Part shown: one piece after another, positions 7,075-31,203 of the stretch | How positions within the stretch are numbered: the first letter of the stretch is position 1 | How the letters are laid out: each line of letters begins with the position of its first letter | Source of the DNA: Thermaceae bacterium | GTDB taxonomy: Bacteria > Deinococcota > Deinococci > Deinococcales > Marinithermaceae | Assembly (NCBI GenBank): GCA_026984675.1 | Contig: JALSRQ010000108.1 | Location: 1-43,803, forward strand | DNA length: 43,803 nucleotides | Direction: 5' to 3' | Program-made: the position numbers and the translations under genes | The notes under the pieces: model-generated | What the model was told of the DNA's origin: nothing | What the model saw: only the letters and a program-made list of their open reading frames with translations | Database searches by the model: none

Positions 7075-7746
7075 CTACCCGAGCCCGATGGGGGGCAGCA
7101 GCAAGGGGGCGAGGAGGCCGGTGATCAGCCCCGAGACCGCCATCGCCAGCCCCCCGGCGGCCAGCGCCTCGGGGCCCTCCTCGGCGGCGCGGGCGGTGCC
7201 GATGCCGTGGCTGGCGGTGCCCAAGGCGGCCCCCAGGAAGAAGGGGCGGCGCACCCCCAACGCCCTCAGCACCGGGACCCCGAGGGCGGCCCCCAGGATC
7301 CCGGTGAGGATCACGAGGGGCACCGTGAGGGCGGGGTCGGCGCCGTGCAGGGGGGCGAGATCGACCGCGATCCCCGAGGTCACCGACTTGAAGGCGAGGG
7401 CCCGTTGGAGGGCCTCGGGGGCGCCGAGGGCCCGGGCGAGGAGGGGGGTGGCCACCAGGCTGGTCGCGCTCCCCAGCCCGACCCCGGCGAGGAACCGCCC
7501 GGCGTGGCGGGCCACCGTCCGGACCTCCCGGTGGAGGGCGTACCCCAGCGCCACCACCGCCGGTTTGAGCAGCCAGACCAGAACCCGGGTGCCCGCCTGG
7601 TAGTCGGCCAGGGCGTCGGTGCGCCCCACCGCCACCAGGAGGACGGCCACCGCCAGCGCCACCGGGTTGGTCCAGGGCCGGGGCCAGCGGCGGTAGACCG
7701 CCCGCGCGGTCAGGTAGGCGGCGAGGGTGAGGAGCGTCCAGCCCAC
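7075..7746 (-). CDS. lrgB: LrgB/CidB-family membrane protein
   Basis: A 223-residue polytopic membrane protein of the LrgB family, acting with LrgA. The family is linked to holin-like control of murein hydrolases in Staphylococcus and to transport of small carboxylates such as glycolate in plastids. Recognisable phrases are FKSVTSGIAVDLAP and FFLGAALGTASHGIGTARA, the conserved LrgB core. The GTG start at 7746 shares one base with the TAG of lrgA (TAGTG) and is preceded by GGGGAGGGG, which fixes the start although the frame is open much further upstream. Confidence 0.88.
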   Translation of the reverse strand: MGWTLLTLAAYLTARAVYRRWPRPWTNPVALAVAVLLVAVGRTDALADYQAGTRVLVWLLKPAVVALGYALHREVRTVARHAGRFLAGVGLGSATSLVATPLLARALGAPEALQRALAFKSVTSGIAVDLAPLHGADPALTVPLVILTGILGAALGVPVLRALGVRRPFFLGAALGTASHGIGTARAAEEGPEALAAGGLAMAVSGLITGLLAPLLLPPIGLG

Positions 7747-27670: not shown

Positions 27671-27671
27671 C

Positions 27672-27690
27672 GATACCCGTTTGATACCCG
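27672..27690 (+). repeat. Two GATACCCG direct repeats, 11-bp period (possible SARP operator)
   Basis: GATACCCG occurs at 27672-27679 and 27683-27690, exactly one helical turn (11 bp) apart. The second copy ends 8 bp before the TAGCGT -10 box. This is the spacing described for Streptomyces SARP activators, whose repeats overlap the -35. The cassette's last gene encodes a SARP-like regulator, so autoregulation is plausible. Confidence 0.6.
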
Positions 27691-27698
27691 CGTCCCGC

Positions 27699-27704
27699 TA
27701 GCGT
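27699..27704 (+). promoter_or_regulatory. Putative -10 box (TAGCGT) of the permease-regulator cassette
   Basis: TAGCGT lies 6 nt before the ATG at 27711 with no Shine-Dalgarno, suggesting a leaderless transcript. There is no consensus -35; the direct repeats take its place. Confidence 0.45.
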
Positions 27705-27710
27705 TCGGGC

Positions 27711-27917
27711 ATGGCAAACGCCGTGCCCGAGATTTGCCGTTTTTGGGAGACCGTGTACGTCTACCAGGGCCGTCGCTTCGGCGTTTGGTCCTGGAACGGC
27801 CGCGAAGTGATCTTGCTCGCGCTCGACGGGGAGCGGCCGCACTTTGTCTCCCTGGCGTTCGAGGAGTTCGACAGGCTCGCGTGCAGAGAGGAGGGAACCA
27901 ATGGCGAAGCTACGTAG
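27711..27917 (+). CDS. Small hypothetical protein (68 aa), first gene of the cassette
   Basis: A 68-residue soluble protein of unknown function. Its centre is beta-rich (ETVYVYQGRRFGVWSWNG, REVILLALDGERPHFVSLA) and could form a small SH3-like barrel, followed by an acidic tail. Real coding is supported by the promoter-like box 6 nt upstream and the overlap of its last 17 bp with the APC permease gene, whose ribosome site lies inside it. Confidence 0.6.
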   Translation: MANAVPEICRFWETVYVYQGRRFGVWSWNGREVILLALDGERPHFVSLAFEEFDRLACREEGTNGEAT

Positions 27918-29178
27918 GCGGATCGGTGTTTTTCAGGGAGTCGGGATCGCGGTCGGGATGGTGGTGGGCTCGGGCATCTTCGGCTTGCCCGGGCTGGCGA
28001 TCGAAAAAGTGGGTCCTCATCTTGCTATTTGGTCTTGGATCGCGATTTCGCTGATGGTTGCACCGATGATTTACGTCTTTATGCGCTTAGGTATGCGCTT
28101 TCCGGAGGCGGGGGGCTTGGCCCGGTATGCCGAGGCCGTGCTCGGCCGGTGGGCGGAATACGGGGTCACGGCCGCCTTACTGGGAACCTACTCGATCGGC
28201 ATTCCGGCGCTCGCGATCGTGGGAGCCGCGTACTTGCAACGCCTGCTTCACCTGCCCTTCTCGCTGGACCTTCTCGCCTTCCTCGTGCTGGCCGCGGTAA
28301 CCCTCTTCAACGTTGTGGGCGTACGGGTGGCCTCGACCGTGAACACCGTTTCCTTGCTGACCATTTTCGCCCTGATCGCTTTTCTAGGGATCGTACAATT
28401 TCACGCCGTTTTAGAGGGGGCACGCTTGCTTCACACCCCCCTTCTGCCCGCGGACGTGCCGCTAGGCAGGGTTTGGAAGGTCCTTGCGATCCTCTTCTGG
28501 GCCTATCTCGGGTGGGAAAACCTTTCCTTTGGCCTGGAGGAGTTCGAGCAGCCCCGGCGGACGATTCCCCGCGTTTATTGGGGAAGTTATGGGTTGGTCG
28601 TTGTCGTCTACCTGGCCCTGGCGATGTTGGCGAGCGGGGGTGCCGGCCTTGGGCTGCGCGTCGAGGGTATTAGCGGGCTTTCCGAGCTTTTGCCGGAGCG
28701 GTTCCGTGCGCTCCTTTTGCTCGCGATCGTCGCCATCGTATTGGCCAATGCCAATTCCTGGGTCTTCGGAGCGAGTCGGCTCGTGTTCGCGGCTGCCCGA
28801 TCGGGCATTCTCTTTCGTGGGCTGGCCGTTCTGGATTCCCGGGGTTTGCCGGTACGGGCACTTTTGGCGATGTTGGTTTTTTACGGGCTATTTTTGTTTG
28901 CAAAAAGCGTGTTGGGATTTGGTGTTGGGGATGTGATTGCCCTGGTAAGCCAAAACTTCATCGTTCTCTACTTGATTAGTCTCTTCGCGTTTGCACGGCT
29001 TTTCGCGGGGGCTTTGGACCGCTTTGCTTTTTCCCTGAGCTTGTTCGTGATCGGGGTCATGCTAAGCGGTTTTCGATACTGGCTGGTCTACCCCTTGCTG
29101 TTGATGTTCCTCGGCTATACCGTTTGGAAGCGAGTCAACAAGGAAAAGGAAGAGGGTGCCCATGAAGGGAATGCGTAG
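27901..29178 (+). CDS. APC-superfamily amino-acid permease
   Basis: A 425-residue membrane protein with about 11-12 hydrophobic segments. The first helix carries the APC substrate motif GVGIAVGMVVGSGIFGLPG (about residues 13-31), and the middle has WENLSFGLEEFEQPRRTIPR, typical of amino-acid transporters of the APC family including YjeH-like exporters. Direction and substrate are unknown. The start at 27901 has GAGGAGGG 5-6 nt before it; the frame is open further upstream. Codons such as TTT, TTG and ATT are clearly more frequent than in flanking genes, suggesting acquisition from elsewhere. Confidence 0.85.
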   Translation: MAKLRRRIGVFQGVGIAVGMVVGSGIFGLPGLAIEKVGPHLAIWSWIAISLMVAPMIYVFMRLGMRFPEAGGLARYAEAVLGRWAEYGVTAALLGTYSIGIPALAIVGAAYLQRLLHLPFSLDLLAFLVLAAVTLFNVVGVRVASTVNTVSLLTIFALIAFLGIVQFHAVLEGARLLHTPLLPADVPLGRVWKVLAILFWAYLGWENLSFGLEEFEQPRRTIPRVYWGSYGLVVVVYLALAMLASGGAGLGLRVEGISGLSELLPERFRALLLLAIVAIVLANANSWVFGASRLVFAAARSGILFRGLAVLDSRGLPVRALLAMLVFYGLFLFAKSVLGFGVGDVIALVSQNFIVLYLISLFAFARLFAGALDRFAFSLSLFVIGVMLSGFRYWLVYPLLLMFLGYTVWKRVNKEKEEGAHEGNA

Positions 29179-29521
29179 GGGCCCATCGTTCATCGCACGG
29201 GTGGTGGGCCGTTTCTTAAACGTATACGCTTTGGTAGGAGAAGGGCGGGAGAAAGTGTGGAGAGACTACTCGATTGCGGAGCAGCTTGCGCTCCACTCGG
29301 TGGTTGCTTTTCCTCGGACCGGGTACGTTATGGAGCGGTTTCAGCCCCCGCATTGGCTTGAAAAGAAGGTCCTCTATGCTCCGAGGTTAAAGCACCACCA
29401 GGTTTCTGCTTCCGCAATCCGGAATGGGCAGGTTCCCGATTCACTCCTCCCCACGTTCGTACCCGAAGCGGTTGCCAGGTATATCTCCGAAAGGAACCCG
29501 TGGGCACAGGATAGCGGTTAA
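29162..29521 (+). CDS. Unknown protein (119 aa) between permease and regulator
   Basis: A basic 119-residue protein that I do not recognise. No signal peptide or membrane span is seen. It contains NVYALVGEGREKVWRDYS, then PRTGYVMERFQPPHWLEKKV and a C-terminal LLPTFVPEAVARYISER. The ATG at 29162 overlaps the permease end by 17 bp and has GGAAGAGGG upstream; a GTG 6 nt earlier (29156) is also possible. Its TAA overlaps the ATG of the regulator (TAATG), so it is translated together with both neighbours and probably acts with them. Confidence 0.65.
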   Translation: MKGMRRGPSFIARVVGRFLNVYALVGEGREKVWRDYSIAEQLALHSVVAFPRTGYVMERFQPPHWLEKKVLYAPRLKHHQVSASAIRNGQVPDSLLPTFVPEAVARYISERNPWAQDSG

Positions 29522-31203
29522 TGGCTGGCGGAAAGCGAGCGGCGCAAAACCCTGACTGTTTGCAGCTTCTTGAGCGGGCGATCGATCTCGGCCGGGAACC
29601 CCTGGCTATCGCCTTATTGGCTCGGGCCCAAAGGCGCAGGGGCGACTCTCCCGACGTTTGGGCGCTTGCCGCCGCCTACGCCTACTGGAGCGGGCGCGTT
29701 GGGGAGGCAGCGGAAAAGGCCCTCAAAGCGGCACAGCTCGGGACCACCTTTCGCTCGGCGTTTTGGGCTGCGCGAACGCTGGAGTGGCGCGACCCGCTCC
29801 TTTCCGAGAAGTACTTCCGGCTTGCCGTGGAGCTGGCGGAGGAGGCGTCGGACTGGCCCAACCTGGCCAGGGCGTCGGCGGGGCTGGCCCGCAATCTGGC
29901 GCTTCAAGCGGCGTACCCGGAGGCCGCCGGATTGGCGCGCTGGGCCCTCGATCTTTGCGAGCGGCTCCCCGAGTGCCAAAAACGGGAAACGACCTACTTG
30001 GAGGTCGTGCGGGCCTACTCCGAGACGGGCCTCTTGTCGGCTAAAGACAGCGACTTGGGAGTTCTCGAAGAGCACCTTCAGCGCGCGCTTTCAAGGGCGT
30101 ACAGGGTTCGCTCGGTGTACACCCGCCCCCTTTGGTTGCAACGTTTCTACCTCGCGCTATCCAGGGGGGAGGTTTCGGAGGCGGCCCAGTACCTAAAGAG
30201 GGCCACGCGGTTTTTGCGTTCGCGGGTGGCGGCGATGCTTTTCCTTATTCCCGAGGTGCGCTTGGCCCTGGAGGGTGGTGCGGGGGCGACGGAGGTCGTG
30301 CGCGCGACTCGGCCGCTCGCACAGGGTATGGACTCCGTATTCTCCCGCTACCACGTTCTGGCCGAAGGCATGGCCGCGGTGATCGAGGCCCCCGAACGCG
30401 CGGTGGCCTACCTGGAGGAGGCGCGCACGCGGTTTCAAAACCCGCTCAACGCGGTGGAACTGGCCCGCGCCACCCTCTACCTGGCCGGCGCTTATCAGCT
30501 TCTCGGCGATGCCAGGTCGGCCCGGAGGGTTTTAGCGGAGGCCGGCAAGGCGGTCGAGGGGCTCTCCGACCCGGCGGTGCGGGCGCTCGTAGGCCCCTCG
30601 GAGCTACGTCCCAGGCTAGCGAGATCGGGGGGGTTGGAGCTTTACTTCATGGGCGGGTTGAAGGCCACGCGATTTGGACAGGCGGTGCCATTGAGCCTGC
30701 GCCAGGCCGAGCTGCTGGTCGCCCTTCTCGCCGAGGGGCGGCCGCTTAGTGCCGCCGAGCTGGCCGCACGGGTTTGGGAGCGCCCGGTCTCGGACGTGGT
30801 GGTGCGAAATCAGATCGCCCGGCTACGATTGCACGTACGTCTGGACTCCAATCCCTACCGCGTTTTGGATAGGGTCTGGGCCGACTTTCTGGAGATCCCG
30901 GTGCTCTTAAGGGAAGGGCGGCTTGCGCGGGCGCTCGCGCTCTACCGCCCGCCTCTTTTGCCCACTTCCACCGCTCCTGTGGTCGAGGAATGGCGGGTTC
31001 GGCTCCGGGAAGAGGTGAAACGCGCGGTCATGGAGACCGCCGACCCCCACCTGCTTTTAAGGCTCGCCGACATCGAGGGCGACGATCCGGAGCTTTGGGA
31101 GGCGGCGGCACGGGCGTGGCCGAGGGGATCGGTTTGCCGCGGTCTGGCGGAGGGAAGGTTGCGGGCTGCGCTCGGAGACGAGGATCGATCGCCCAGCGGG
31201 TAG
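29521..31203 (+). CDS. TPR-containing SARP-like transcriptional regulator
   Basis: A 560-residue protein. Residues about 1-360 are helical repeats of TPR type (ALLARAQRRRGDSPDVWALA, NLARASAGLARNLALQAAYP, LYLAGAYQLLGDARSARRVL). Residues about 375-455 form an OmpR/SARP-like winged helix: LELYFMGGLKATRFG, PLSLRQAELLVALLAEGRPL, SAAELAARVWERPVS, VVRNQIARLRLHV. A short BTAD-like tail follows (GRLARALALYRPPLLP). The domain order, TPR first and DNA-binding part late, is the reverse of classical Streptomyces SARPs. It probably controls its own cassette through the repeats at 27672-27690. The start overlaps the previous stop. Confidence 0.75.
   Translation: MAGGKRAAQNPDCLQLLERAIDLGREPLAIALLARAQRRRGDSPDVWALAAAYAYWSGRVGEAAEKALKAAQLGTTFRSAFWAARTLEWRDPLLSEKYFRLAVELAEEASDWPNLARASAGLARNLALQAAYPEAAGLARWALDLCERLPECQKRETTYLEVVRAYSETGLLSAKDSDLGVLEEHLQRALSRAYRVRSVYTRPLWLQRFYLALSRGEVSEAAQYLKRATRFLRSRVAAMLFLIPEVRLALEGGAGATEVVRATRPLAQGMDSVFSRYHVLAEGMAAVIEAPERAVAYLEEARTRFQNPLNAVELARATLYLAGAYQLLGDARSARRVLAEAGKAVEGLSDPAVRALVGPSELRPRLARSGGLELYFMGGLKATRFGQAVPLSLRQAELLVALLAEGRPLSAAELAARVWERPVSDVVVRNQIARLRLHVRLDSNPYRVLDRVWADFLEIPVLLREGRLARALALYRPPLLPTSTAPVVEEWRVRLREEVKRAVMETADPHLLLRLADIEGDDPELWEAAARAWPRGSVCRGLAEGRLRAALGDEDRSPSG

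Follow-up and report, generated by a model that had tools for sequence, protein, structure and literature searches.

Which protein switches on the four-gene cassette that lies between positions 27671 and 31200 of contig JALSRQ010000108.1, from a Thermaceae bacterium (assembly GCA_026984675.1), and does the cassette bring that protein along? The window, as we call the whole stretch of DNA that was analysed, is 43,803 nt long, and the evidence used throughout is sequence. The cassette encodes a 68-aa protein, an amino acid permease, a truncated NadD-like enzyme and a 560-aa regulator. Our results indicate that it is quite probably a self-contained transferable operon, equipped with a promoter switch and an activator of its own, and controlled by positive autoregulation. 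The promoter elements and the limits of the unit are the following.

27672..27679, + strand: upstream repeat of the putative operator, GATACCCG, read from the sequence and identical in G003 (JALVVO01, a genome of the same genus)
27683..27690, + strand: downstream repeat of the putative operator, GATACCCG, starting 16 nt ahead of the TA of the −10
27699..27704, + strand: −10 element TAGCGT, with no recognisable −35; the CCCGCTA just before and into the −10 is identical in G003
27671..31200, + strand: inserted unit of ~3.5 kb, made up of operator, promoter and four genes, on the basis of an empty-site comparison

At base level, the promoter is built as the sequence-only reading of this DNA had described it. 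The two GATACCCG copies have a period of 11 with a TTT spacer between them (27672-27690, direct reading), and 8 bases (27691-27698) separate the second copy from TAGCGT, which gives a layout of 8+3+8, then 8 bp to the −10, without a −35. The coordinates also bear out the four overlapping genes behind this promoter (overlaps of 17, 17 and 1 nt). Because the first ATG, at 27711, lies only 6 nt past the −10, the mRNA of the operon is probably leaderless or nearly so, starting at or next to that codon; leaderless expression has been described for this phylum (PMC12340547), and a −10 beside the first codon fits it. An inverted repeat, TCGGGCATGGC / GCCGTGCCCGA, spans the first start codon at 27705-27730 and could form a hairpin at the 5' end of the mRNA; it is not conserved in G003.

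A search for the paired GATACCCG pattern with up to 2 mismatches returned this site once in the window, and any match at all in 2 of 100 shuffles. The pair is also the only exact 8-mer repeat of period 11 in the window with a TANNNT sequence 7-9 nt downstream; without the TANNNT condition, exact 8-mer repeats of that period are present elsewhere in it. The genome-wide scan for paired copies that had been proposed earlier was run, and the whole genome (G000) holds no second pair with fewer than 3 mismatches, so that no genome-wide regulon was seen; an operator unique in the genome is expected for a local autoregulator. Single-mismatch matches to the operator in other genomes resemble chance or coding sequence.

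The predicted operator is more than chance, and the decisive support for this is its conservation in an orthologous, non-syntenic cassette. In G003 the four genes stand in the same order between different flanking genes, behind a promoter that reads CGATACCCGTTTGATACCC-CGCG-CCCGCTA, with the distance to the TA preserved and TAAAAC as the −10. Over operator and promoter, 26 of 31 bases are shared with the window (no other match in that locus exceeds 18), and in the flanks around the operator the similarity between the two is at background within one 10-bp step. The sequence-only reading had named orthologous cassettes without such repeats as the observation that would speak against it; the comparison was run, G003 keeps the repeats, and the idea survived.

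The cassette has also moved. An empty site, in which a P-type ATPase gene is joined directly to an ABC ATPase gene, occurs in G001, G003 and G006, and this ABC ATPase gene is the right flank of the window cassette. On its left the insert starts immediately behind the stop codon of the P-type ATPase gene, with the operator at this edge, and on its right it ends at, or a few bases from, the regulator stop, within CGGGTAGACTG, which is also present in the empty site of G001; no repeat scar is seen in the empty site of G003. Because the edges of the insert are the operator and the regulator stop, the putative operator and the four genes must have moved together, as one unit. The suggested search for the four-gene set elsewhere found it in G003, at that other locus, and no further cassette. 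Among 111 genomes of the order the NadD-like protein was found in G003 only, a scan of GTDB contigs with the regulator returned the cassette in G003 only, a plasmid scan gave only distant Deinococcus regulators and no cassette, and no operator was found in the viral contigs scanned for it. In G002 and G004 (L159, L163) the ABC ATPase gene is preceded by amino-acid ABC permease genes, whereas G001, G003 and G006 (L160-L162), like the window ahead of the insert, carry the P-type ATPase gene in that place; this difference is a separate rearrangement at the same junction.

The same geometry recurs beside related regulators. Up to about 20 kb were fetched around 57 relatives of the regulator, giving 58 loci with the window, and each TANNNT was inspected for an exact 7-mer repeat of period 7-15 whose second copy starts 11-22 nt upstream. 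In the 57 relatives, without the window, period 11 gave 9, 14 and 15 matches at distances of 15, 16 and 17 and period 10 a smaller peak (6, 8 and 7), with mostly 0-4 in the other cells; in control DNA, which consisted of 20 arbitrarily chosen stretches of 20 kb from these genomes, the counts for period 11 at the three distances are 2, 1 and 0. The 16-nt distance from the start of the second repeat to the TA is also found in G003 and G024, and distances near 16 in other relatives. A site is present in 22 of the 58 loci (20 strict ones in relatives, plus those of the window and G003). Where a strict site was lacking, a relaxed operator search gave weak candidates in L103, L112 and L122 and otherwise noise. 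Other operons with the geometry encode or adjoin a regulator, such as the ABC transporter and regulator of G024. About seven repeat words were found, differing by clade.

GATACCC: window and G003
GCTACCT: G024, preceding the genes of an ABC transporter and the regulator
CGTAACCT: Thermus-like loci, some 200 nt past the regulator gene
CCGCAACC: G008
GGTAACG: G019, several copies
TGAAGCG and TTCAACG: other members of the family of G019

The words correlate with the identity of the winged helix (Mantel r 0.74, 0 of 5000 permutations), as cognate pairs of regulator and operator would give, though shared ancestry contributes. The Thermus-like loci (L128-L131, L133, L134 and L137) carry a near-identical CGTAACCT double-repeat promoter about 200 nt after the regulator gene, and the gene behind it varies or is broken (a beta-propeller-like open reading frame (ORF), a PP-loop protein with MLSGGVDSS, short remnants); the position looks like a replaceable target slot. 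One of two matches to the geometry in control DNA, near position 7680 on the minus strand of L143 (G048), consists of GTAAGAGG twice followed by TACAGT, and may be a genuine site for a related regulator.

We then considered the protein that would read these repeats.

29521..31203, + strand: 560-aa regulator with N-terminal TPRs and a C-terminal OmpR/PhoB-type winged helix, 50% identical to that of G003
30676..30849, + strand: winged-helix DNA-binding domain, residues 386-443, matching PF00486 (C-terminal part) with E 1.3e-5

Both domains previously assigned to the regulator were recovered, and their order could be fixed, with the TPRs N-terminal and the winged helix C-terminal. The PF00486 match lies slightly under the gathering score, and the family profile of the regulator matches OmpR/PhoB-type PDB chains with E about 2e-4. 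TPR_12 matches the window regulator with E 3e-5, many TPR models match its relatives, and the family profile also matches NprR in the PDB (E about 1e-6) through generic TPR similarity. In a two-sequence AlphaFold model (predicted local distance difference test, pLDDT, 70), usable for helices only, residues 13-346 are all-helical, and a Foldseek search with it puts TPR proteins at the top of the list, the DNA-binding domain not being resolved; a single-sequence model (pLDDT 51) was too poor for use. After the winged helix follows a short tail that resembles the start of a BTAD domain; PF03704 has no match in the window regulator at E up to 1, and a weak one in 6 of 30 relatives (best E 3.7e-4). 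OmpR/PhoB-type factors occupy repeats of an 11-bp period in head-to-tail fashion, and the response regulators of this type share the winged helix of the window regulator, but the latter has no receiver domain, its cassette encodes no kinase partner, and TPRs stand in the sensor position.

The operator itself recalls the Streptomyces antibiotic regulatory proteins (SARPs). Their operators are two short direct repeats with an 11-bp period, the 3' repeat 8 bp from the −10 and no useful −35, and the secondary site of PimR has a 10-bp period (PMC10936776, PMC10972967). In the cryo-electron microscopy structure of AfsR, two protomers lie side by side on the 11-bp repeats, with contacts to the first 8 bp of each but none to the final 3, and sigma region 4 is seated on them instead of on a −35 (PMC10936776). 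The window shows this geometry (27672-27690, 27699-27704), which recurs in the relatives; SARPs likewise have an OmpR-type winged helix and then a BTAD-like stretch, and the large ones also have TPRs. The differences lie in the protein and its host: in the window regulator the winged helix (residues 386-443 of 560) follows the N-terminal TPRs, BTAD goes undetected (weak in 6 of 30 relatives), there is no NB-ARC/NOD domain, and the organism is not an actinobacterium, the group to which a review confines SARPs (PMC10972967). Because of the C-terminal winged helix and the undetected BTAD, the regulator is not a SARP as defined, despite its operator, but by analogy it likely works like one. The earlier proposal of a SARP-like regulator with a matching operator thus stands for the geometry in front of its own operon, conserved in G003 and recurring across the order, and falls for membership in the SARP family. 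A literature search for SARPs with tandem repeats in Thermus found nothing relevant. Within the same phylum, DnrS of the Thermus thermophilus nitrate respiration element is an activator within the mobile gene cluster under its control, with the sensor domain first and a C-terminal BTAD-type output (PMC5748679); its sensor is a GAF domain, in contrast to the TPRs of the window regulator.

As the layout (8+3+8, 8 bp to the −10, no −35) is that of AfsR, we infer the same mode of activation. Two copies of the regulator would sit next to each other on the two GATACCCG repeats, separated by one turn of the DNA, and the bound protein would replace the missing −35 by docking sigma region 4, after which RNA polymerase would use the nearby −10. 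The transcript would encode all four proteins, including the presumed activator, and thereby close a loop of positive autoregulation. The probable ligand of the TPRs is a peptide, small molecule or partner protein, and the candidates for the signal are the 68-aa protein, the substrate of the permease and the product of the NadD-like enzyme. For the amino acid carried by the permease as the inducer, which the sequence-only reading had tentatively suggested, we found no support and no evidence either way.

The repeats could also be the operator of the regulator with the opposite sign, the protein being a repressor that blocks RNA polymerase upstream of the −10 until a TPR ligand releases it. Negative autoregulation is common and the site overlaps the expected position of a −35, but the absence of a −35 suits a promoter that depends on an activator, the spacing to the −10 is fixed among relatives, which contact with the polymerase would lead one to expect and blocking would not need, and the known proteins with this geometry, the SARPs, activate (PMC10936776, PMC10972967); we consider repression unlikely. 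Still less probable is that another OmpR/PhoB-type regulator of the cell binds the repeats while the cassette regulator acts elsewhere. The domain of the window regulator is in the same class, and 11-bp direct repeats are a familiar target of OmpR-type factors; however, the operator travels with the regulator gene and lies where the insert begins, it occurs only once in the genome, unlike the sites of a global factor, and the repeat words vary with the winged helix of the local regulator. We give very little credence to a repeat pair that arose by chance or recombination, for instance as an insertion junction, and has no regulatory role. Comparable repeats do exist elsewhere in the window and the pair does lie at an insertion edge, but pair and −10 distance are conserved at an unlinked locus whose flanks are at background, the family-wide peak is absent from control DNA, and the empty site of G003 retains no scar.

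Some points weigh against the autoregulated activator as well. An activator that depends on itself requires some basal transcription, and the cassettes available for comparison are two, those of the window and G003. In the family, a strict site is lacking within the distance searched at 36 of the 58 regulator loci, and the loci are phylogenetically related, so that neither the matches nor the word correlation are independent. Moreover, period and distance were known beforehand, from the window and two early examples, and the grid was run after.

The other genes of the cassette are these.

27711..27917, + strand: 68-aa protein of unknown function; 67-aa homologue in G003, BLASTP E 6e-9 for the pair
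27901..29178, + strand: APC-superfamily amino acid permease; PF13520 E 3e-31, 57% identity to G003
29162..29521, + strand: C-terminal half of a NadD-like nucleotidyltransferase, 119 aa; matches the C-terminal half of TIGR00482, E 4.5e-5

The 68-aa protein had no match in Pfam or NCBIfam. The permease keeps its earlier APC assignment, now refined to the closest NCBIfam model, PRK11021 (a YjeH-type transporter of methionine and branched-chain amino acids), which it matches with 139 bits, below the cut-off of 284. The 119-aa product, previously left as unknown, is no orphan: it aligns with the last third of the 284-aa NadD-like protein of G003 (~50% identity, E 2e-11), having lost the N-terminal half with its (H/T)xGH-type motif and retained SASAIR. 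The G003 protein is full-length, with TRAH and SATAIR at the (H/T)xGH and ISSTxIR positions of NadD, and scores 44 bits against an equivalog cut-off of 112. A typical NadD was rejected for this gene, since the window copy is only a half and the G003 copy is under the cut-off; the proteins are related to NadD, not typical of it. In G003 the gene (L031 12254-13108) has a G+C content of 47%, against 57-68% for its neighbours, which suggests a foreign origin. The window copy is half deleted, yet its overlaps with both neighbouring genes are retained.

A further pattern emerged in a subset of the relatives. RRNPP systems are characterised by a TPR receptor that is coupled to a short secreted peptide. 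In nine loci (L098, L101, L102, L104, L106, L110, L120, L124 and L125), probably of the Trueperaceae, the family of G019, the repeats precede an ORF divergent from the TPR regulator that encodes 46-69 aa with a signal-peptide-like N-terminus and, in common, a C-terminus ending in D-x-G. In the closest set the C-terminus reads SNxPGE[WY]DVG (e.g. SNLPGEWDVG), and in L098 its segment is duplicated (AGSSGQPGDIDVG). Several of these loci also carry repeats in the regulator-side promoter. Close pairs show more synonymous (pS) than non-synonymous (pN) change (L101/L104, pS 0.20 and pN 0.03; L120/L125, pS 0.38 and pN 0.14), which supports these ORFs being genes; control DNA contains 17 such short secreted-peptide ORFs in 400 kb. 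Another short secreted-peptide gene lies behind a promoter of the tandem-repeat type in L096 (8267-8136). Over the family as a whole, the secreted-peptide genes behind this switch encode 44-69 aa.

From their sequences, the short peptides are possible pheromones for the neighbouring TPR regulators. The regulators resemble those of RRNPP systems (NprR, PlcR, Rap, Rgg) in the TPR receptor domain and in the divergent peptide gene of several relatives, whereas the winged helix of the window regulator is C-terminal and OmpR-type, in contrast to the N-terminal helix-turn-helix of the DNA-binding RRNPP members, the TPR similarity is generic, and the window cassette encodes no secreted peptide. Such a gene, present in about ten relatives, was found neither within 900 bp of the window regulator nor in the cassette. 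A literature search gave no report of RRNPP in Deinococcus or of peptide quorum sensing in Truepera. We tentatively propose, as a possibility short of an even chance, an undescribed order-wide class of sensor-activators. Its members would have TPRs at the N-terminus, an OmpR/SARP-type winged helix at the C-terminus, and cognate tandem repeats of 10-11 bp that keep a constant spacing to the −10. In one family, probably the Trueperaceae, the class would form complete peptide-signalling circuits of TPR receptor, divergent secreted peptide and operators of the SARP type, which some loci carry at both of the divergent promoters, and the window cassette would be a mobile branch without a peptide.

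SARPs are said to be restricted to actinobacteria, yet their operator geometry is found across this order next to regulators whose domains come in the opposite sequence, and the repeat words, which differ by clade and follow the winged helix, offer a directly testable cis/trans code. The cassette would add a small, single-target activator-promoter pair from a thermophile lineage. If the peptide circuits are real, they would represent an RRNPP-like quorum-sensing design with a different DNA-binding domain, outside Firmicutes, and may bring peptide signalling to a phylum for which our literature search found no such reports.

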